This document shows positions 4,549 through 20,964 of a stretch of 20,964 nucleotides of DNA, piece by piece; the stretch's first letter is position 1; each line of letters begins with the position of its first letter. The stretch spans positions 1-20,964 of IMG/VR virus record IMGVR_UViG_3300047548_000161; one strand, given 5' to 3'. The DNA comes from a virus. Position numbers and translations under genes: made by a program. The notes beneath the pieces were generated by a model. That model was given only the letters and a program-made list of their open reading frames with translations. It did not search any database and was not told the DNA's origin.

Positions 4549-7023
4549 TTAAGCTAAGTCTGGTATCATATTCAAAGCCGTGGCGATTTGTTTTCCATCT
4601 ACTATCAGTGCTATGTTATTTTGTACAACAGACTTTTTAGGAGTGTCTGCAGACGCAGAAGATCTTTTATATTCTTCTAAATCCCTAGCTGCAGGGTTTG
4701 AGGTAGAATAAGGAACCTCAGCCATTTCTGCAGGTTTTGGAGATGCTGTTTTAACAGGTTTTGCAAACGCACTGCTGTTTCCATAAACTTGCTCTTGTTC
4801 TAAATTGGAAATTCTAGTTTGTAAATCTTGAGTCCTATTTGTGGAATATGGATTAGAAGTAGGATTGTTACTTTGATAAGGTGTAGGAGGCTTTCCTGGT
4901 CCTGGTGTAGCTGATACTGCATCCGTATCTTCAAAGGCTCCTGAGCCAGCTGATATGCCTATAGCCGCAGCTCCTGCCGCAACTGTTCCTCCTATAAGCG
5001 CAGCTCCTAAAAGATTAGTTCCTCCACTAGCTACTGTTACCGCAATTGCAGTTTTAATTGCTAAAGCCGATATTACACCAAAAAGTGCTGCGGCTCCTAT
5101 AAGTATACCTTTTAACAATGTTGTATTTTCTAATACTTTTGCTATAAAATTTAATACTTTAGTTAAAGGGCCTGCGGCCATTTCTGTAAATATCTGTTTT
5201 ATTCTCTCAACAGATTCTTCAAATCTTTGTTGTAAGTTAGCTCTTGCTATATCCTGTAAAAGGATTTCACCACCTTCTTTCTTTCTAGCAGCCGCCATTA
5301 ATGCGGCCATTCCCTCTTTATCATTTCTTTGTCTTAGTAATTCGTATTGTTCTTCTAAAGCATTTCTATTTTCAAACCCTAGATTTTTTAATATCTCGGC
5401 TTCTCTAGCAGATTTAGTAAGTTCTTCTGCTGATAATCCTATAGAGGCTGCTAATCTTTCTCTTTGAATAACATTTAACTTTGTTAATCCATTAAGACCT
5501 CCCATTTGATCAAGCAGTTCTTTAGATGCTTCCACTGACTTTCCGTCTAATGCCAAAGCTCTCGCTTTCTCAAAATTAAATCTTCTACCCGTTAATAACT
5601 CCGCTTCAAGTTCTCCTGATATAGAACTTTCAAAATCTAATAAACTTTTAGATATTTGTTTAGACTGTTCTAAAGATATTCCTAATTTATTGGCTTCTAT
5701 AACAGCTTTTGCTATTAAATCAGGATTATTTTTATACATAACAGAAATTTCAGAGTTGACCTTTGCTATCTCTGTTATTATCTTTCTATAAGACATCGCT
5801 GTATTGTTTTGTCTTATAGCGCTTTGTAAAATACTATCTGCAGATCTTCCAGTTAATAAAGAAAACTTCTGTATACCTGCCGCTTCATCTTTTGACAGTC
5901 CCATTTGCTTTGTAAGCAAAATTTGACTTTGAACCATTTTAGCACTAAAGAGAGAATTAGTTTCTAAAATCTCCTGTAGTTCTGCTGTGGCAAGTGATTG
6001 ATTTTTTACAGATAAAAAAGATCTTTCTAACCCTTGCACCAAAACCTCATTATTAGCAGATATAGCTCTAAAATTATCTAATAGTCCTATAGTAGACTCT
6101 TTAGCCATTCCTAGGTTATTCGCTACTTGTGTTAATTGAGCATCAAACTCTAGAGTTGCCTTTACTAAAGATCTGATTAGGCCTACCAACGCTGTGATTC
6201 CTACTACTAGCAGAAACAAAGGACTTTTAACAATCCTCATTATTTCTTCTTTAAGAGCTCCAAATCCTTCTTTTGTACTTTTGCCAAAAGCATCAGATAT
6301 TTTCTTAAAATCCATAAAGTCTTTTAAGAAAGGTATTCCTGTTAAAGATTGGAAGATTCTACCTAGCGCACTAGCTTTTAGTTGTGTCTCTTTAACTAAG
6401 TTATTTCCTGCGGTTAATTGAGAATTTATATCATTTAATTTATTCTCTATTTTTCCTCTTACTTCTAATTCTTTGTTTAAATTTACTAAAGCTATTTCGT
6501 CAGCGCTTACTGTTGCCATTTGAGCGCTAGCTCCTTGAGTTTGATTAGCTATAATTTTTTGTTGTATGGCATTGAGCTCATTTGCCAAATCATTTCTAGT
6601 TTTTCCTAGATTTACTAAAGTCTGATCTATTGCTTCTTCAAGAGCAAGGGACTCGTTTTGATTAAAAGCAATTCTTTCTTGTACAAGTTCTTGATCTACA
6701 TACTCTCTTCCTATTTTACTGGCTATCTGTCTTGTATCGTCTAAAGTATGCTTGACATCTGTACCTAGTTCAAAAGAAAATCTCAAACTTTCAGAGGATA
6801 CTTGAAGATACTTTGCTAAATCTTTTGTATATCCTGTGGTAGCCTGCATGTCCATCCTCAACTTAACCAGATCCTTAACTATATCTCCAGTCATAGCAGG
6901 GGTCCCAAGTAAGTTTGAAGGGCTGTTAGGAGGGGGTGGTGTAGCCGCTTGGGTAGGCGCAGGAGTTGCTGTAGGCGCCGGACTTGGTGCTGGTGTTGGA
7001 GTCGGAGTTACTGGAGGAGGCAT
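4549..7023 (-). CDS. Tape-measure protein (gp29-like role)
   Basis: 824 residues, the longest complete protein among the tail-core genes, directly after the gp26-like/94-codon overlapping pair. That is the usual site of tape-measure genes. Residues 1-35 are almost only Pro, Ala, Thr and Ser. Long Gln/Glu/Leu-rich helical stretches follow (about 50-240). One hydrophobic segment lies at about 267-288 (SPLFLLVVGITALVGL) and a longer Ala/Gly/Ile-rich hydrophobic region at about 630-695. The end has a QNNIALIVDGKQIATALN pattern seen in many tape measures. In the virion such proteins fill the tube, set its length and enter the cell envelope during ejection. The hydrophobic segments fit the last role. 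T4 gp29 is 590 residues, so a longer tail is possible. The GAGAAAG six to twelve bases before the ATG is the nearest thing to a Shine-Dalgarno in the window. Confidence 0.8.
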   Translation of the reverse strand: MPPPVTPTPTPAPSPAPTATPAPTQAATPPPPNSPSNLLGTPAMTGDIVKDLVKLRMDMQATTGYTKDLAKYLQVSSESLRFSFELGTDVKHTLDDTRQIASKIGREYVDQELVQERIAFNQNESLALEEAIDQTLVNLGKTRNDLANELNAIQQKIIANQTQGASAQMATVSADEIALVNLNKELEVRGKIENKLNDINSQLTAGNNLVKETQLKASALGRIFQSLTGIPFLKDFMDFKKISDAFGKSTKEGFGALKEEIMRIVKSPLFLLVVGITALVGLIRSLVKATLEFDAQLTQVANNLGMAKESTIGLLDNFRAISANNEVLVQGLERSFLSVKNQSLATAELQEILETNSLFSAKMVQSQILLTKQMGLSKDEAAGIQKFSLLTGRSADSILQSAIRQNNTAMSYRKIITEIAKVNSEISVMYKNNPDLIAKAVIEANKLGISLEQSKQISKSLLDFESSISGELEAELLTGRRFNFEKARALALDGKSVEASKELLDQMGGLNGLTKLNVIQRERLAASIGLSAEELTKSAREAEILKNLGFENRNALEEQYELLRQRNDKEGMAALMAAARKKEGGEILLQDIARANLQQRFEESVERIKQIFTEMAAGPLTKVLNFIAKVLENTTLLKGILIGAAALFGVISALAIKTAIAVTVASGGTNLLGAALIGGTVAAGAAAIGISAGSGAFEDTDAVSATPGPGKPPTPYQSNNPTSNPYSTNRTQDLQTRISNLEQEQVYGNSSAFAKPVKTASPKPAEMAEVPYSTSNPAARDLEEYKRSSASADTPKKSVVQNNIALIVDGKQIATALNMIPDLA

Positions 7024-7054: not shown

Positions 7055-7339
7055 CTATTTTTTACTAGCGGCTCTAGGTGACACATAATCTGGCATTTGT
7101 TCTTTTCTCTTTGCTAAGTCTTCCATGCTAAGAGATCCTCCTTTTTTATTAGCTTTTTCTATCTCTTCGTTATGTTTCTTTATTATATCTGATAGTTTTT
7201 TTATGTTTATAAGTCTATACGCCGTAGGCATATGATAGGCTTGTTCATATGAGATAGCTCCCTTGCTATTCATAGATAGCCATAACAATTCATCAAATAA
7301 GTGGTTTCTATACTCTGAAGTCAGGCCAAAAAAAGTCAA
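7055..7339 (-). CDS. Overlapping small frame, probable frameshift extension of the gp26-like protein
   Basis: This 94-codon frame overlaps the end of the gp26-like gene by 32 bases in the +1 frame and ends 31 bases before the tape measure. Its first possible start is a TTG inside the gp26-like gene, without a ribosome binding site. The first ATG is at residue 23 (7273), inside what looks like folded protein (EYRNHLFDELLWLSM, then ISYEQAYHMPTAYR, then a Lys/Glu-rich helix). A run of seven T in the overlap offers a slip site. A shift of +1 or -2 there would give a fusion of about 338 residues. In lambda, Mu and many other tailed phages the gene pair before the tape measure makes a tail-assembly chaperone and its frameshifted extension. 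T4 instead uses separate genes 26 and 51. I infer the frameshift; separate initiation at the TTG or ATG is the alternative. Confidence 0.7.
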   Translation of the reverse strand: MTFFGLTSEYRNHLFDELLWLSMNSKGAISYEQAYHMPTAYRLINIKKLSDIIKKHNEEIEKANKKGGSLSMEDLAKRKEQMPDYVSPRAASKK

Positions 7340-8072
7340 GAGTCATTGGGATATTGAGGCCCTCCACTACCTCTCCATTACTCAAAGTAAAATCAAATAC
7401 CATCTTAATATCAGGAGTATTCAGTGCCATTTCTTTTCTCAGATCTTGAGAATCTCTCATAGGCATTACTTTGACAAAATCCCTAATTACTTTCTTATCT
7501 CTGTCTCCATCTACAGCTACTATTAAATTAGAAAGCCTTACAGTACTCTCTGATGAGAGATTTTTGTTTATCTTTTGCAATCCTTTTACCTCTGATTCTA
7601 TGGCATTCTCATCTTTTTGAGTAGCTATTTTATAAGTTACTAGCTTTCCACACATTTGCAGTTGGTAATCAAACTCATTAACACCTTTCTTAATAGATGC
7701 CCAATCCAACTCTTTTTCTTTAAGTGTGGATAAATCCACAGTTACCTCTTCAGGAGTTGATTTTCCTGCCGGAGTATACTTGAAGGAGTAGCTACTTCCG
7801 TATGCTAATATCCTGGCTGCTATCATTATAGCATTCTTATCTCCTATAAGAAGATCGTTATAATCAATTTTAGAAGCTATAATAGCTTGTAAAAACTTAT
7901 CAATAACTACACCTTGTTGAATGAAGTTTTTGTTTGTTAAAATGTCTTCATGCATTGCTGTAGGTAAGTAAAGTTCTATCTGTCCTGAACTTAGTGGACT
8001 GCTTTCTGGATAAAGAAGACCTCTTGAAGGTAGGTCTAAAGGTTGTGTTGGAACATTCATTAAATCTGCCAT
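7308..8072 (-). CDS. gp26-like baseplate hub / tail-assembly chaperone protein
   Basis: 254 residues. Residues 14-22 read LPSRGLLYP, followed by SGQIELYLP, EDILTNKNFIQQG, and a helical IIASKIDYNDLLIGDKNAIMIAAR stretch read in pieces. This combination is what I know from the T4 gene 26 baseplate family (Pfam T4_baseplate). In T4, gp26 is needed to build the hub around the tape measure. The ATG is preceded by an ATATTTAT element 18 bases upstream, and a strong terminator isolates the gene from the preceding one. This gene therefore probably begins a new transcription unit of chaperone, tape measure and baseplate genes. Its last seven codons overlap another frame across a T7 run. The last visible residues in this frame are FFWPDFRV, then TAG. 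At 254 residues it is somewhat longer than T4 gp26 (208). Confidence 0.75.
   Translation of the reverse strand: MADLMNVPTQPLDLPSRGLLYPESSPLSSGQIELYLPTAMHEDILTNKNFIQQGVVIDKFLQAIIASKIDYNDLLIGDKNAIMIAARILAYGSSYSFKYTPAGKSTPEEVTVDLSTLKEKELDWASIKKGVNEFDYQLQMCGKLVTYKIATQKDENAIESEVKGLQKINKNLSSESTVRLSNLIVAVDGDRDKKVIRDFVKVMPMRDSQDLRKEMALNTPDIKMVFDFTLSNGEVVEGLNIPMTLDFFWPDFRV
7328..7334 (-). other. T7 run, candidate programmed frameshift or transcriptional slippage site
   Basis: On the sense strand the gp26-like gene reads GAC TTT TTT TGG and stops six codons later at TAG (7308-7310). Gaining one base, losing two, or a change in the number of T in the transcript at this run would continue as TTT GGC CTG ACT in the 94-codon frame. 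It is the only homopolymer of this length in the overlap. Confidence 0.6.
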
Positions 8073-9179: not shown

Positions 9180-9770
9180 TTAGAATCCTTCTTCTATAAA
9201 TATCTTCTCTATTTTCTTAGAAAGTTTCTTATAATTCATATTAAATTTAGGGGACATGTTTTCTATTAGCCTTTTATTAGTGTACGGACTGTTTTTAGTT
9301 GAACACCATCTTCTAGACATTAACATGTAATTATAGAAATGAACATAAGAGTTTGCTTTTCTTGTGTAGCTTTCTACATCTATAGGAAGTTCAAACTCTT
9401 TTATTAAGGCTACAGATCTTTTTTCGTTATCTAATTCTAAATCTCTACAGTTTGCTACATGCTTTTCTATACCGACTACAGAATTTCCTGATAACCACTC
9501 ATCTAATTTAGCACAACTCTTGACACAATCTTTCCACAAAGGGATTTGTTCTCTCCATTGAGTTAAGTGACAATACTCATGAACTAATATCTCTATTGAA
9601 TCTTTTCTACCCATAGAACAAACTAATGTGGGAACAGATTCGTCAAAATATCCGGAAGCTTTTATAGAATTAGTAACTTTTACATACTTTGTATTCCTTA
9701 AATCACATTTAACACCTTCTTTTCGGCACTCGGCTTTAACAAAAGCGATAAAGTATTTATGTGTATTCAT
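9180..9770 (-). CDS. HEYCH-motif putative zinc metallopeptidase
   Basis: 196 residues. Residues 64-68 are HEYCH in the context ILVHEYCHLTQW, a standard HExxH zinc site with E65 as the expected catalytic base. A downstream ELDNEKRS segment (residues 112-119) could give the third zinc ligand, as the glutamate does in gluzincin/ImmA-like enzymes. The N-terminus has no signal peptide, and several cysteines are scattered (19, 22, 51, 67, 82, 86, 109, 156). The substrate is unknown. It could process a virion protein, act on a host protein, or be cargo that arrived with the neighbouring homing endonuclease. It is preceded by its own ATATTTAT element and no Shine-Dalgarno. The prohead protease of T4 (gp21) is a serine protease, so this is not its counterpart. 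Confidence 0.65.
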   Translation of the reverse strand: MNTHKYFIAFVKAECRKEGVKCDLRNTKYVKVTNSIKASGYFDESVPTLVCSMGRKDSIEILVHEYCHLTQWREQIPLWKDCVKSCAKLDEWLSGNSVVGIEKHVANCRDLELDNEKRSVALIKEFELPIDVESYTRKANSYVHFYNYMLMSRRWCSTKNSPYTNKRLIENMSPKFNMNYKKLSKKIEKIFIEEGF

Positions 9771-9798: not shown

Positions 9799-9806
9799 AT
9801 AAATAT
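9799..9806 (-). promoter_or_regulatory. ATATTTAT element before the metallopeptidase-like gene
   Basis: The sense strand reads ATATTTAT starting at the last base of the endonuclease stop codon, with 28 bases to the ATG at 9770. A short GGCGGGTTTTTT follows it. Confidence 0.4.
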
Positions 9807-10714
9807 CAGGTCTGTGGGATTATCCCAGCCTCTATAAGAGTATTTAACACTTCTTCTGGAGAGTTGTATATTTTATTTTCCCAGAATCTAAGTATTGTAA
9901 TATCGTTTTCTGCACACCATTTGTTCTTAATGTGATCCTTCTCTATATTTGTTTTTTGGAATTCAAAATCCGGCTCTCCGTGTATGTCTGGGTTACAATG
10001 CCAGAAGTCTCCGTCTGTTTCTATTATTATTTTTAAAGAGGGTATATAAAAATCATAAAACGCCTTTATACTCTCTACATAGTAAAATTTAGTGTAGTCT
10101 ACATTATAAGGGTCCAGATAAGTCTCTTGAAAATAGGTTTCTAATTTAGAAGTATACTGCTTATGACTATTAATAAGGTGGTTTATGTGACTCTTAGATA
10201 GCTTCTCTCTATACTCTGGGGATTCCCAGTAGTGCGTCATTTTCGCTTTCCAATTCTGTACATGCTCCTCAGACTTCTTCTTCCCTTTAAGCTTGTTAGA
10301 TATTTTTTCAGCCCTTTCAGGAGAGTTTTCTTTTTTAAATAGATAACTATAATTTTTAAGAGTGTCGTTAGATTCTTTAGTTTGTCCTTTAGACCAGTGT
10401 TTTATCTCTCCATTGGCATATTTTTCTTTGTATTTAGCGGCACTTTTGGCCAATCTAGTAGGGTCAGACTTGTCTCCCCATACATCAGGATGGTGGTTTG
10501 CGTAATGTCCTGGTCCCGCATACTCTCTATAGTTAAAAGGATTTTCTACAAAATACGATACTTTTTTACCACACCCACATTTACACAAAGGTATTACATC
10601 ATCATACAAGTATTTTAATGTGTATTCCATACTTGTTGTCTTGTGTGTTTTATATAAATGCTTAGACAATCCATTTTTATTGCCAAACACTTTACCGCAT
10701 ATCTTACATTCCAT
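9806..10714 (-). CDS. Free-standing homing endonuclease: zinc finger plus Vsr-like nuclease domain
   Basis: 302 residues in three parts. Residues 3-24 form a C2H2 finger (C3, C6, H19, H24). Residues 44-75 hold a second probable zinc site (CKCGCG, then GHYANHH). Residues about 145-180 have the GKKKSEEH and SPEYREKLSKSH repeats typical of NUMOD3-type DNA-binding helices of homing enzymes. The C-terminal domain has IIETDGDFWHCNP (E232, D234, H239), then NIEKDHIKNKWC (D260, H261) and ITILRFWE. This is the layout of Vsr-like, EDxHD-type homing endonucleases. It sits between tail tube and metallopeptidase genes with no role in the tail, as expected for a mobile intruder that cuts genomes lacking it. 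A hairpin directly before its ATG, with an ATATTTAT element in the loop, probably controls expression. Confidence 0.85.
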   Translation of the reverse strand: MECKICGKVFGNKNGLSKHLYKTHKTTSMEYTLKYLYDDVIPLCKCGCGKKVSYFVENPFNYREYAGPGHYANHHPDVWGDKSDPTRLAKSAAKYKEKYANGEIKHWSKGQTKESNDTLKNYSYLFKKENSPERAEKISNKLKGKKKSEEHVQNWKAKMTHYWESPEYREKLSKSHINHLINSHKQYTSKLETYFQETYLDPYNVDYTKFYYVESIKAFYDFYIPSLKIIIETDGDFWHCNPDIHGEPDFEFQKTNIEKDHIKNKWCAENDITILRFWENKIYNSPEEVLNTLIEAGIIPQT

Positions 10715-10788: not shown

Positions 10789-11277
10789 TCAAAAATTTAA
10801 AATCATCCCACTGTTTCCTAAAGTCATCTCAATAGTGGTGTAAGCATCCAAAGACCAGTCCCAATCACCGAAAGAAGATACATTCTTAATGAAAGCCTTC
10901 TTAATTACCCATTCATTCACTACGTTTCCAACAGGATCTATAGCGTTGAAGGTAATATCCTTCCAGTAAAAGTCACCGTAGCCAGCACGACCTGTTACAG
11001 TCTCGTAGCCAAGTCTAGCCCATTCCATTACAGTCTGTGCACCTGAAGGTGATACTGGATTGTAGAGGCTGAGTGTTACATCGTTCCACCTACGCTTAGC
11101 ACGAAACTTTACGTATGAGTTGATGTGATCAATGATAACCTCTCCATCATCGTATCCGATACCTCCTACCTTTTTAATCAGGTAGGAAGGGATACCGTCT
11201 ATATACATTACGAATCTATGTTGGAGGATGGGTTCAAATAATGTGCCCAACATTTCATCTGTACTAAGTAAAGCCAT
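10789..11277 (-). CDS. 19: Tail tube protein gp19
   Basis: 162 residues, against 163 in T4 gp19. It begins MALLSTDEMLGTLFEPILQH and contains HRFVMYIDGIPSYLIKKVGG, a WNDVTLSLYNPVSP segment and a C-terminal SFGDWDWSLDAYTTIEMTLG strand pair. All are features of the T4-type tube protein, which stacks in hexameric rings to form the inner tube inside the sheath. It follows the sheath gene by 34 bases. No Shine-Dalgarno is present; the ATG is preceded by AAATTAAA, with an ATATTTAT element 22 bases upstream. Its GC content is visibly higher than that of its neighbours (about half in the lines I counted), probably codon selection for a very abundant protein. Confidence 0.95.
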   Translation of the reverse strand: MALLSTDEMLGTLFEPILQHRFVMYIDGIPSYLIKKVGGIGYDDGEVIIDHINSYVKFRAKRRWNDVTLSLYNPVSPSGAQTVMEWARLGYETVTGRAGYGDFYWKDITFNAIDPVGNVVNEWVIKKAFIKNVSSFGDWDWSLDAYTTIEMTLGNSGMILNF

Positions 11278-11311: not shown

Positions 11312-13567
11312 TTATCCGAAATTAACTCCAGTAGCTGTGATATTGAATTCCAACAAGATGAATTCGATAGACTTAACAGGAGATACATAAATCTTACCTA
11401 TCAGCTGATTGCGATCTATCACATCATTGGTATTCAGTGTGTCATCAATCTGGATACGGAAGGCATACAAACCTTGACGAGTTTGAACACTCTCCATATA
11501 CGGAGTTATTGCTGAGATGAGGTTGTTTCTAGTTGCTATGGTGTTGTTCTCAAACACATAGTTAAGAGCTACGTTGCTGATGTACTCACGGAGATTGATT
11601 AACAACCTACGAACATTTATACGATTCAGAGCGGTATCTCTAATCTGAAGTGTCTTTTGACCCCAGATAACTACTCCACTAGTTTGGAATTTAGCGATTG
11701 GGTTAACACGGCCAGCATACAAAGCATCCCTATCTGCCTTAGTCAGACGTACACGGGTATCAATTGCTCCACCAAGTCCACCACGATTCAAACCAGCAGG
11801 AGCGAACCATTCAGCAGCTACCTTATCATTGTAAGCGTAGGCTTGAGGTACTACTACTGTTGGAGGAACGTAGATGTCTTTAGTAGTGTTAAGGTCTTTT
11901 ATTTTTACCCAAGGGTAGTAAGCAGCACTGTAGCTAGAATCCAAGCTAGCAGCAGTTGCTACGGCAGTTGCTACTGTAGAGTTCAAACCAGTTAAATCAC
12001 GAAGATAAACTGCATCTGTACGTCCTTCGCACATATTTTCAGCAACAGATGCTACATAAGGATGATACTCTTCTATTACACCAGGTAAAGCTAAGATATC
12101 AAAATTATATTCTTCAGTGTTAGAAAGAATGTTTAAAGCTTTTTCGTAAGAAACAGATCCGTTAGCGCTAGCTCCGTTCAAGTTAAATCCAAACACATTG
12201 CTTACTGATATATCAGCACCTTTCTTCTTTATAGTCGTGTAGTTCATACCATCAGTTCCGCCTTGGAAAGGAAGTATAAACTTATTATCACCAGCAGGCT
12301 TAGTAAATATAGCATTAGAACCTGTAGCAGCTCCGGTAGGAATTGGGTTAAGATAGTTCCAGTTATCAGAATTTGAATAATCAAATCCAGAGTATGTTGC
12401 ACTAGATGCTGTGCTAGATACCATAGAAGCAGCAGGCAAGTTAACTGAAGCAAATCCTGCTATTGTTTCGTAGATAGCTTTGTGTCCATTAGGGTATAGC
12501 TGTGGGTGTGTTGCTTTTCCAGATACAGCACCAGCAACTTCTATTCTAATATAGTTAGACCTATTGTCAAAATCTCCGTACTTAACTACTCTTCCGAGAG
12601 TTGAGCTGTAAGCTGAGTAGGTGTCTCCGATCATTTTGCCTACATAGTTAGCAGCATCAGGATCCATAGACACTCCAACAAATTGCTCAAGAATTGAAGG
12701 AGACCTGTCTGTATCATTCCACTGGCGAACAATTACGTCAAAAGTAGAATAATCAGCAGCAGTTAAACCTTGGCTTATGTTAGCTATTGCTACTTTAACG
12801 TCTTTATTTGTTTTGAAGCCATCAGACCTGTGGTGGAATTTAAATAATTCAACACCGCTATCTGCTACTACCCATGGAGTAGATCCGTGATCGTACCCAC
12901 CAGGATTAGAACTAGTAAATTCGCAAGCAGTTGTTGTAAAAACTAAATCACTGTTTATAGTTCCTCCATAAGAAGATGCCGCTACTCCACTTCCAGTAAT
13001 AAAGTTACTGAAAAGCAAGTATGGGAATATGGATCCTGTTTGAGAATTCTCATCTGTTCCTAATACTTTAGAAATATAAGTAGCAGATGTAGGATTTAAA
13101 GACGCACTAAAAGAGGAGCTAAATGTTCCTGTACCTGTATAAGCCCAGAATTTACCATTAAAAGCATTATAAGTACCTCCTACAGAAGATCCTGTATGGA
13201 TTGCTACTGCAGCGGTATCATTTTTAGTAGGGTAAAGTACAGCTACTATTGTAGAGCCGCTTATAATAGCAGATATAGGCCTTGTAAGACCGTATATAAA
13301 TCCACCATCACCAAGAACTCTAGTTACTTTTGCTGTGTTTCCAGCTTGTAAGTAGCTATAAACAGTTTGAGGTACATAGCTATTAGCACTGTCTGCGCCA
13401 AAAATAGCAGTGAATTGACCGTAGCTGGTAACATCCGTAGGAACGAATGCAGGGCCTTTTTCAGTAGGTCCTACTATTGCAAGAGCCGTTTGTTCAACGC
13501 CTTGCGTATAGAAGCTCTGATCGTTTTCGTAGGCATAAACGCCAGCGGAAAGAATTTGTTCTGTCAT
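11312..13567 (-). CDS. 18: Contractile tail sheath protein gp18
   Basis: 751 residues, against 659 in T4 gp18. The N-terminus (MTEQILSAGVYAYENDQSF, then IVGPTEKGPAFVPT) and C-terminus (RRLLINLREYISN, NVIDRNQLIGKIYV-like segments, then VKSIEFILLEFNIT) are those of T4-type sheaths, whose conserved end forms the inner core that grips the tube. The middle (about residues 100-470) is Ser/Gly/Thr-rich, divergent and probably the outward, variable domains. This part carries the extra length. Around the residue 510 boundary the DNA changes from AT-rich to clearly more GC-rich. The start codon lies inside one arm of a 15-base inverted repeat spanning the leader. The tube gene follows after 34 bases. 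Confidence 0.95.
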   Translation of the reverse strand: MTEQILSAGVYAYENDQSFYTQGVEQTALAIVGPTEKGPAFVPTDVTSYGQFTAIFGADSANSYVPQTVYSYLQAGNTAKVTRVLGDGGFIYGLTRPISAIISGSTIVAVLYPTKNDTAAVAIHTGSSVGGTYNAFNGKFWAYTGTGTFSSSFSASLNPTSATYISKVLGTDENSQTGSIFPYLLFSNFITGSGVAASSYGGTINSDLVFTTTACEFTSSNPGGYDHGSTPWVVADSGVELFKFHHRSDGFKTNKDVKVAIANISQGLTAADYSTFDVIVRQWNDTDRSPSILEQFVGVSMDPDAANYVGKMIGDTYSAYSSTLGRVVKYGDFDNRSNYIRIEVAGAVSGKATHPQLYPNGHKAIYETIAGFASVNLPAASMVSSTASSATYSGFDYSNSDNWNYLNPIPTGAATGSNAIFTKPAGDNKFILPFQGGTDGMNYTTIKKKGADISVSNVFGFNLNGASANGSVSYEKALNILSNTEEYNFDILALPGVIEEYHPYVASVAENMCEGRTDAVYLRDLTGLNSTVATAVATAASLDSSYSAAYYPWVKIKDLNTTKDIYVPPTVVVPQAYAYNDKVAAEWFAPAGLNRGGLGGAIDTRVRLTKADRDALYAGRVNPIAKFQTSGVVIWGQKTLQIRDTALNRINVRRLLINLREYISNVALNYVFENNTIATRNNLISAITPYMESVQTRQGLYAFRIQIDDTLNTNDVIDRNQLIGKIYVSPVKSIEFILLEFNITATGVNFG

Positions 13568-18214: not shown

Positions 18215-20964
18215 TTAATAGTTAAAAAATAAGAATAAACTTGAAGCAGCGGAAGATCCGCCTGTTGATGATCCTCCTATAGAAGAAGTAGGTATGGTTA
18301 TAGTTCTGTTATTAGGACCTCCAACCCAAACATATCCACTTTGGAGGGATGCTGTAAATGTGGTAGATACCTCTAGGGAGCCTGTTATATCAATACCTGT
18401 ATTTGTTATTTCAAGTATGTTAACACTTCCAGAAGTAAATGCAGCTAAGGTGGTTAAAGATCCACTATCAGATACTTTGAATAACTCCCCTCTACTTCCT
18501 GTAACCACCAGTAAAGTAGAGCCGCTACCTTGCATGGTAACAGTGTTCGTATTCTTATTGAAAGTAAATGATGTTGATCCTGATGTAGATCCTGCATCAT
18601 TGAATTGCACTGTTGTGTTTACTCCTCCAGGAGCTGCTGAAGCTACTACTCCAGTAAGTGCAGATCCATCTCCTCTAAACGAGCCTGTAAAAGCAGACGC
18701 TGTTACAAATCCTTGTACTGTTAATGAGTGAGTTGGGTTTGTATTTCCAATACCTACATTAGCACGTAGTATTGTTTTTGTTATATTTGAGTTGCCTAAA
18801 ACAACTGTATTTGATCCAAATCCTGTGGTGTCAGCTCCTATTACGATTTCATTATTAGTTTGTCCACTTAAACCACCAGCATTAAGACCAAATGCATTGT
18901 ATCCTATATATATTGATGATGTTATATATCCTGTTATATTACTTCCAGCATTTGATCCTAACGCTGTATTTTGAAGTCCATCAGCATTAGTTATTGATTG
19001 GTATCCAATAGCAGTATTGTTACTATTTACTAATGAATTATTTAAGCTTAGAGCTCCTACAGCCGTATTTTGAACACCTGTAGTAATAGCAGATCCTGCG
19101 GACCAGCCAACAGCAGTGTTTAAATTTCCCCTAGTATTAGAATCTAATGCGGTTACTCCTACAGATGTGTTAAAACTAGCATCGTTACCAGCTGCAAAAG
19201 TATTTGTAGTACCAGCATGTCCTATATATATGTTTTGTCCAACCGCTCCTGCGGCACGAAAAGTTGATCCTATTACTCTAGGGTCACCATTTGTATTAAT
19301 TGTTAAACTTCCAGTTATAGTTAAACTACCTGTTAATACTAATGCTGTTCCTGTAAATGTTAAATTAGCTTCTGCGTTTGCAGCATTTGTAGTTCCATCT
19401 GAAGTTAATATCCTATTGTCTGCGTTATTAGCCACAGTTGTAAAGCCTGTACCACTACTACCAGAAGACCCTGAAGTACCTGTGGACCCAGAGCTTCCAG
19501 ATGTACCTGTTGAGCCTGATGATCCACTAGTTCCTGTTGATCCGGAAGAACCTGAGCTACCATTAACTCCGTTTGCACCTGATGTGCCGCTAGAACCTGT
19601 TGATCCAGAGGATCCTGAGGAGCCGGTACTACCGGAAGAACCGGAAGATCCTGTGGAACCTGATGATCCAGAAGACCCACTTGTTCCGGTAGATCCACTA
19701 GAACCGCTAGTACCATTAGCTCCTGATGTACCACTAGAACCTGATGAACCATTTGCACCATTGGCTCCACTAGTTCCTGAACTACCTGATGTTCCGCTAC
19801 TGCCACTACTGCCGTTAGCTCCGCTGGTACCTGATGAGCCCGAAGAACCATTAGCCCCATTAGCTCCTGAGGTTCCAGAAGATCCACTTGTGCCTGTGCT
19901 ACCACTACTCCCTGAAGTTCCTGTTGAACCGCTTGATCCAGAAGAACCTGTTGATCCAGAGGATCCCGAACTACCGGAGGTACCTGAAGAACCTGCAGCA
20001 GCTACCCAAGTAGTTCCATTATATCTATAAATGTTATTATCTGATGTATTATAATATATTTGACCTGCCGCTGTACCAGCTGGATTTGATGCTGCTGTAG
20101 GTATCCTTAAAGATCCTGTAATTCTTACTGAACCAGTAAAATCATGGGTATCAGCTGTACTATCTCCGAATATATTACTTCCACTACTGTAAATTACAGA
20201 AGAAGAAACGGTTTGAACTACTAGTGTATTTGCTGTAATAGTTCCTGTAGAACTAATATTTCCAGTTACAGTAAGAGTAGTTCCGTTAAAAGTTAAGTTA
20301 GATTCAGCATTTGCATCATTTGCTGCGCCTGTAGAAGTAAGGACTCTATCATTAGCAGCATTAGATATAGTTGTAAATCCTGTACCAGAAGATCCTGAGG
20401 ATCCGCTTGTACCTGTTGAACCTGAGCTACCGCTAGTTCCTGTACTACCACTGCTTCCAGAAGTTCCAGTAGAACCTGAGGATCCTGAAGTACCAGTAGA
20501 ACCACTAGACCCGCTAGATCCGCTAGTGCCGTTAGCACCGCTAGATCCACTACTACCTGAACTTCCAGAAGTTCCTGCGCTACCAGAAGACCCAGAAGTT
20601 CCATTCGCACCATTAGCTCCTGATGTACCAGAAGAGCCGGATGTTCCGTTTGCTCCAGAAGATCCTGAAGATCCTGATGTTCCATTAGCGCCACTGGTAC
20701 CGGAAGAACCAGAAGTTCCGTTAGCTCCTGATGTTCCTGAAGACCCTGATGTACCGTTCGCTCCACTGCTTCCACTCGATCCTGATGATCCTGTAGATCC
20801 AGAAGATCCACTAGATCCTGTAGAACCTGATGAACCTGAAGTGCCAGTTGATCCAGAGCTTCCTGATGTACCTGTAGAACCAGAAGACCCTGAAGAACCT
20901 CTAGATCCTGAGGATCCAGAAGAACCGGAAGTTCCGGTTGTACCACTACTTCCAGAAGTTCCTG
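18215..20964 (-). CDS. Very long tail fibre with two collagen-like arrays and a beta-roll end (5' end outside window)
   Basis: The frame is open from the right edge to the TAA at 18215 (915 full codons; the start is not seen). An internal GTG at 19435 is not a credible start, because the Gly-X-Y frame runs straight through it. The order of parts is: 192 residues of Gly-X-Y, a 130-residue module with VIYSSGSNIFGD and GQIYYNTSDNNIYRYNG segments typical of phage fibres, 181 residues of Gly-X-Y, then about 411 residues. The last part repeats the module opening. It continues with NTAVG/NTAIG-type repeats (residues equivalent to 19200-18800) like the left-handed beta-roll heads of YadA-type adhesins, then GIGNTNPTHSLTV, GDGSALTGV and GELFKVSDSGSL. 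No S74 chaperone domain is seen at the C-terminus. It is probably a trimeric, elongated host-recognition fibre. Confidence 0.9.
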   Translation of the reverse strand, partial: GTSGSSGTTGTSGSSGSSGSRGSSGSSGSTGTSGSSGSTGTSGSSGSTGSSGSSGSTGSSGSSGSSGANGTSGSSGTSGANGTSGSSGTSGANGTSGSSGSSGANGTSGSSGTSGANGANGTSGSSGSAGTSGSSGSSGSSGANGTSGSSGSSGSTGTSGSSGSTGTSGSSGSTGTSGSSGSTGTSGSSGSSGTGFTTISNAANDRVLTSTGAANDANAESNLTFNGTTLTVTGNISSTGTITANTLVVQTVSSSVIYSSGSNIFGDSTADTHDFTGSVRITGSLRIPTAASNPAGTAAGQIYYNTSDNNIYRYNGTTWVAAAGSSGTSGSSGSSGSTGSSGSSGSTGTSGSSGSTGTSGSSGTSGANGANGSSGSSGTSGANGSSGSSGTSGSSGTSGANGANGSSGSSGTSGANGTSGSSGSTGTSGSSGSSGSTGSSGSSGSTGSSGSSGSTGSSGTSGANGVNGSSGSSGSTGTSGSSGSTGTSGSSGSTGTSGSSGSSGTGFTTVANNADNRILTSDGTTNAANAEANLTFTGTALVLTGSLTITGSLTINTNGDPRVIGSTFRAAGAVGQNIYIGHAGTTNTFAAGNDASFNTSVGVTALDSNTRGNLNTAVGWSAGSAITTGVQNTAVGALSLNNSLVNSNNTAIGYQSITNADGLQNTALGSNAGSNITGYITSSIYIGYNAFGLNAGGLSGQTNNEIVIGADTTGFGSNTVVLGNSNITKTILRANVGIGNTNPTHSLTVQGFVTASAFTGSFRGDGSALTGVVASAAPGGVNTTVQFNDAGSTSGSTSFTFNKNTNTVTMQGSGSTLLVVTGSRGELFKVSDSGSLTTLAAFTSGSVNILEITNTGIDITGSLEVSTTFTASLQSGYVWVGGPNNRTITIPTSSIGGSSTGGSSAASSLFLFFNY
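19322..19453 (-). repeat. Fibre module opening, second copy
   Basis: 44 residues beginning GTGFTTVANNADNRILTS directly after the second Gly-X-Y array. They match the copy at 20255-20386 in 27 of 44 positions, so array and module were duplicated together. Confidence 0.85.
19451..19993 (-). repeat. Collagen-like Gly-X-Y array, C-terminal block
   Basis: Sixty uninterrupted Gly-X-Y triplets plus a closing Gly. X and Y are almost only Ser, Thr, Ala and Asn, with a single Val and no Pro. Serine codons vary (TCT, TCA, AGT, AGC, TCC, TCG), so the protein repeat is kept while the DNA repeat is scrambled. Confidence 0.95.
20255..20386 (-). repeat. Fibre module opening, first copy
   Basis: 44 residues beginning GTGFTTISNAANDRVLTS directly after the first Gly-X-Y array. 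It is the partner of the copy at 19322-19453. Conserved positions include GTGFTT, LTS, and NAE.NLTF. Confidence 0.85.
20387..20962 (-). repeat. Collagen-like Gly-X-Y array, N-terminal block (continues past the window)
   Basis: Sixty-four uninterrupted Gly-X-Y triplets reach the window edge. Ser and Thr dominate, with some GAN triplets, a single Arg and no Pro. The total length is unknown because the array leaves the window. Confidence 0.95.

Follow-up and report, generated by a model that had tools for sequence, protein, structure and literature searches.

In the virus studied here and in its relatives, a single gene very probably yields two forms of a tail assembly chaperone (TAC), a short one and a long one that arises through a +1 ribosomal slip at a run of T, as judged from comparison of related sequences. 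The window, that is, the whole 20,964-nt stretch analyzed (IMG/VR record IMGVR_UViG_3300047548_000161), carries on its minus strand a gp26-like open reading frame (ORF) of 254 amino acids (positions 8072 to 7308), whose 3′ end reads ATG ACT CTT GAC TTT TTT TGG CCT GAC TTC AGA GTA TAG and encodes the C-terminal end ...LDFFWPDFRV*. A second minus-strand frame, in a +1 (equivalently −2) relation to the first, is open from 7342 to 7058, with a TGA just before it (7345–7343) and its stop codon at 7055–7057. The two share 32 nt, counted up to the gp26 stop, and the shared segment includes the T7 run at 7334–7328. The candidate slip site TTT TTT TGG (7326–7334; the P site holds the Phe codon TTT, with a T after it, and the A site holds TGG) is preceded by a GAC codon (7335–7337), a position with marked codon bias. 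A conserved Shine–Dalgarno (SD)-like element, GGAGGG, lies at 7360–7365, with a GGAGG-to-T-run spacer of 26 nt. Beyond the slip site, 90 codons in the +1 frame (7058–7327, GLTSEYR...ASKK) would encode a C-terminal chaperone domain.

The surrounding genes follow the order known for TACs: tube, gp26, second frame and tape measure. The tail sheath (11312–13567; phrog_23, E=1e-70) and tail tube (10789–11277; phrog_4542, E=7e-14) genes lie upstream of the gp26-like gene, all on the minus strand. Directly downstream is a tape measure protein candidate (4549–7023, minus strand), assigned by position, length and an annotated counterpart in immuto and SP-15. An Rfam search of the window gave no match. 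The sequence-only reading of this locus had described the 32-base overlap at the T7 run, the +1 (or −2) rather than the common −1 relation, the lack of an ATG near the start of the second frame and its chaperone-pair layout before the tape measure gene, and all of these were borne out, the overlap exactly. Other minus-strand ORFs were also observed. Between the tube and chaperone genes, a 302-amino-acid ORF (9806–10714), whose start resembles a zinc finger and whose end resembles an endonuclease (IIIETDGDFWHCNP), is possibly a free-standing homing-type endonuclease. Inside the tail cluster, a 196-amino-acid ORF (9180–9770) is metalloprotease-like, with the HExxH-type motif LVHEYCHL. A long collagen-like protein with GTSGSSG repeats (18215–20962), running past the window end, is likely a tail fibre.

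In the proposed mechanism, the gp26-like gene and the second frame would constitute a single TAC gene. Most ribosomes would stop at TAG and release the 254-amino-acid short form (TAC-N), and a fraction would pause with tRNA-Phe in the P site on TTT and TGG as the A-site codon. The tRNA-Phe would then move one base forward onto the overlapping TTT, or onto TTC in some relatives, and pair again there; reading would proceed as ...LDFF-GLTSEYR... in the +1 frame to give a predicted long form (TAC-NC) of ~338 amino acids, which ends in a helical domain. Lambda gpG/gpGT suggests by analogy that the role of the short form would be to coat the tape measure protein, and that of the long form to bring in the tail tube protein. 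The lambda pair is likened here by layout, as it also comprises a short and a frameshift-extended chaperone preceding the tape measure gene, although its shift is −1.

In profile searches, the gp26-like protein matched PF12322 with E=6e-5 (23.3 bits, below the curated cut-off of 24.5, which the close relatives L002 and L004 exceed with 25.2 and 27.3 bits) and phrog_150 (baseplate hub) with E=1.5e-6. The second frame of the window gave no family match in the same Pfam and PHROG searches. The two domains were modelled separately rather than as a fused protein. The AlphaFold model of the gp26-like protein had a pLDDT of 91; its viral Foldseek matches were SP-15 and T4-like hub subunits, and its best PDB fold match, although weak (prob 0.51, E 0.45), was the HK97 tail assembly chaperone 2ob9. 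The second-frame domain was modelled as helical (mean pLDDT 79.5, at least 95 over residues 11–60), with a helix, a GGxS...MP...R turn and a long helix, and its fold weakly resembled that of the Moogle tape measure chaperone. In addition, DUF6760 (PF20546), a family of unknown function, matched 13 of the 50 second-frame members of alignment A11 (best E=6.5e-6), and is possibly related to the second-frame chaperone domain; it matched neither the window nor the genomes tried.

Comparison with relatives, which the sequence-only reading had proposed as a check, showed that the T run and the frame relation are kept. The +1 relation was found in 169 of the 170 fetched loci having both ORFs, and TTT TTT TGG CCT was identical in 122 of 142 unique sequences. 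On these two counts the second frame is judged to be real, far beyond chance. Close IMG/VR relatives (L001–L006, 64–82% identity) keep site and relation exactly, and both are also present in Flavobacterium phage immuto and Microcystis phage Mel-JY01. Scans with alignments of gp26 and of the second frame added 160 further loci, 80 of which were retrieved by gp26 alone and were thus not chosen for having the second frame. The other slip sites in this set were TTT CTT TGG CCT (8), TTT TTT TTT CCC (6), TTC TTT TGG CCT (2) and single variants; TTC TTT CGT is a further variant among the relatives. In one locus (L025), an equally long chance frame is present in −1, yet the conserved domain is in +1. 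Once the SP-15-like branch was added, the set contained 163 unique +1 sequences from metagenomic viruses and from Flavobacterium, Microcystis, Bacillus SP-15 and Listeria phages. Each domain is present once per complete genome. The SP-15-type alignment found a single contig among bacterial genomes, from an Erysipelotrichaceae MAG (L323). A few members of the +1 branch (L299, L300 and those with TTT TTT TTT CCC) have T TTT TTT or T9, on which a −1 shift should likewise be feasible; mixed or shifted sites are possible there. At L008:5854-5964, L012:5695-5814 and L181:3730-3959, public annotation of the second frame is limited to a C-terminal scrap in immuto and SP-15, with none in LIS04; the TAC-C domain goes unrecognized there.

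Judged from the sites themselves, the direction of the slip is best read as +1 and not as the Mu-type −2 slip that the sequence-only reading had brought up, because TTT CTT TGG and TTC TTT CGT permit +1 but not −2 re-pairing. In a −2 slip, the P-site tRNA-Phe would move back two bases in the T7 run and enter the same frame with one extra residue, giving a junction with three Phe (LDFFFGLTSEYR) instead of the two expected for +1. Such a slip is known in Mu (PMC5009743), the window T7 run itself is compatible with it, and perfect −2 re-pairing on T7 or T6 runs is possible at 127 of the 137 window-branch sites. It fails, however, at the other 10 and at 12 of the 26 SP-15-branch sites, whereas the P-site tRNA can re-pair after a +1 move at all 137 and at 21 of 26, respectively. 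The frame is unchanged at TTT CTT TGG (8), GAT TTC TTT TGG (2) and TTC TTT CGT/CGC/CAT (7), all of which permit +1 only; 17 sites (TTT CTT TGG, TTC TTT TGG and TTC TTT CGN/CAT) thus discriminate for +1 and none for −2 alone. In five SP-15-branch sites (for example, TTA TTT AAT and TTA TTC AAT), the nominal codons do not offer a clean +1 re-pairing. Taken together, the −2 slip appears unlikely.

The codon preceding the slip site is strongly skewed toward a C ending: AAC outnumbered AAT by 79 to 0, GAC outnumbered GAT by 26 to 2 and AGC outnumbered AGT by 10 to 0, compared to 584:1195, 570:1912 and 147:274 for the same pairs in gene bodies. The AAC/AAT bias has a P value of 2e-37, which is inflated by shared ancestry as no phylogeny correction was applied, and the NNC pattern spans 99 representatives of less than 85% identity. 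A C before the T run prevents the −1 heptamer T TTT TTT, which these viruses appear to avoid. The canonical −1 features that were looked for are lacking: the relation is +1, a C precedes the run and folding energies revealed no downstream RNA structure in the +1 branch (mean z 0.15). The site also differs from the RF2-type +1 arrangement, as the A-site codon is TGG and not a stop codon and the SD-like element is 26 nt upstream, not 3 nt. A GGAGG-like element 26 nt 5′ of the slip site was present in 83 of 99 representatives, compared to a mean of 34 (maximum 45) in synonymous-codon shuffles. At −31, GGAGG lies farther 5′ than the known RF2 or dnaX modes would allow, and its spacing matches no known stimulator.

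Substitution patterns between related sequences indicate that, in the window's branch, the second frame is under purifying selection from the slip site onward. Position 3 of the +1 codons takes 67% of the substitutions in the nine post-slip codons (the overlap zone) and 58% in codons 10–33. The conserved motif F-[FY]-[GS]-L-x-x-E-Y starts at the slip site itself, and the 0-frame tail past that site is variable (WPDFRV, WPEFGV, WPK). Independent or coupled initiation, with the second frame as a separate gene started from TTG 7339 or by termination–reinitiation, was weighed against these data. That TTG is present in the window and its closest relatives, and 72 of 137 unique loci have some ATG, GTG or TTG at or upstream of the slip site. 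The TTG is, however, the only near-upstream second-frame start left by the TGA in the window and has no SD-like core; the first ATG is well inside the frame. Immuto and Mel-JY01 have no TTG at the corresponding position, and in 65 of the 137 loci the +1 frame offers no ATG, GTG or TTG earlier than 10 codons after the slip site, inside the conserved domain. A candidate start with an SD core was found in only nine of the 137. On these start and SD counts, an independent start was rejected and is very improbable. The third-position substitutions, the missing starts and the motif beginning at the slip site together form the signature of a frameshift fusion, not of a separate gene.

Transcriptional slippage at the T run, which would add or remove one or two bases in the mRNA, is suggested by a T7 run within an AT-rich genome, but relatives with interrupted runs (TTTCTTTGG, TTCTTTCGT) retain the frame, which makes this explanation scarcely credible. 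A homopolymer sequencing or assembly error splitting one gene, for which the homopolymer at the junction would speak, has a negligible probability and is already refuted by the comparison with relatives, as the same frame is present in the finished cultured genomes of immuto, Mel-JY01, SP-15 and LIS04, as well as in over 150 contig sequences that are unique.

The gene upstream of the tape measure in the T4 superfamily (PF12322 / phrog_150 + phrog_634) has homologous N and C domains and a junction at the same place after FF, and would use −1 instead of +1 slipping. In S-PM2, P-SSM2, KVP40, HTVC008M, Cr30 and phiM12, a tiny ORF annotated as a second gene, gp51, comes after gp26 in a −1 relation, and the gp51-type homology begins 5′ of the annotated gp51 start. 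All 88 sequences inspected (85 unique −1-branch members plus Atu_ph07, PA5oct and LR756511) carry the heptamer T TTT TTY, and in all 85 the −1 frame lacks a start codon ahead of the slip. About 55 of the 85 have an upstream GGAGG-like element with a 10-nt spacer, the SD-to-slip-site distance of dnaX. Folding energies point to a downstream stem between +8 and +60 (mean z −2.47, with 58% under −2); its presence in the −1 branch and absence in the +1 branch provide independent support for both direction calls. The window's branch is set apart from these phages by its +1 relation and by lacking the heptamer, the element at 10 nt and the stem. The second-frame domains of the window's, SP-15 and −1 branches were found to be homologous by hhalign (92.8–96.4%, with P between 1e-9 and 4e-7; column-shuffled controls did not exceed 9.5%).

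The link to T4 is made in two steps. The window C-domain matched the −1-clade gp51 ORF (hhalign 92.8%, P=4e-7), and the −1 domain matched the C terminus of T4 gp51 at 88.7% (92.2% in a separate comparison); the direct comparison of the window second frame with T4 gp51 gave 0.5%, which is not significant alone. The sequence-only reading had connected this locus to gp26/gp51. That link is real, although the second frame corresponds to the gp51 C-terminal domain only and not to the whole of gp51. Genes 26 and 51 are indeed separate in T4, as that reading had it, but T4 gp51 comprises an entire gp26-like protein together with the C-terminal domain. Each of T4 gp26 and gp51 is a full PF12322 protein, and their genes are transcribed divergently; from their sequences, the two are paralogues, with gp51 being the long isoform from a duplicated gene. 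T4 would thus share with the window a short and a long chaperone from one family, and differs in encoding them as two divergent paralogous genes without a frameshift (Vladimirov et al. 2022, as cited in PMC10885494). In the gp26 tree, the directions form deep groups and at least three changes are required, a number that is tentative given a quick tree with long branches. The jumbo phage relatives Atu_ph07/PA5oct (L182/L183) and LR756511 (L013) have the −1 heptamer T TTT TTC yet fall on the +1 side of this tree and are possibly secondary direction switches.

Frameshifted tail chaperones using −1, −2 or +1 shifts are established, T4 having long been the exception (PMC5009743). Phage Mu (−2) and the haloarchaeal myovirus HSTV-2 (very likely +1) have a second frame that is reached by +1/−2, as is that of the window, to which they are likened on that basis, although they belong to different phage groups (PMC5009743). 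The TACs of Vandenendeviridae/Andersonviridae (Adele, Moogle) share a T-run slip site at the TAC-N end but use −1 with GTTTTT (PMC12846349). The tie of gp26/gp51 to the general chaperone system, also put forward by the sequence-only reading, is real and already published: PMC10885494 and PMC12846349 cite Vladimirov et al. 2022 for T4 gp26/gp51 as tail assembly chaperones, PMC10885494 cites Vladimirov, Gautam and Davidson 2022 for T4-like phages with one short and one long gene, and PMC12846349 credits Vladimirov et al. 2022 with poly-T −1 signals in T4-like TAC-N genes. The literature check, which extended to works other than Vladimirov et al. 2022 itself, found no report of the +1 branch. T4 gp26/gp51 as chaperones and frameshifted chaperones in general are known, whereas what may be new is the +1 branch with its class of sites, together with the contrast in direction among homologous genes.

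We lean toward the view that a homologous chaperone pair switched frameshift direction in evolution, +1 here and −1 in the T4 superfamily, on the same T run through neighbouring bases and stimulators, and became two genes in T4. The +1 site would then be a conserved class of its own (a non-T before TTT TTT TGG, or TTY TTT CGN), accompanied in the window's branch by an SD-like element whose 26-nt spacing is unexplained. This would explain why the cyanophage 'gp51', only about 20% of the usual length (PMC3037559), is annotated as a tiny separate gene, and would mean that a C-terminal chaperone domain has been overlooked or shortened in the annotation of immuto, SP-15 and LIS04. As matched natural +1 and −1 sites in homologous genes, these loci would make the determinants of frameshift direction testable by a few base changes in a reporter.
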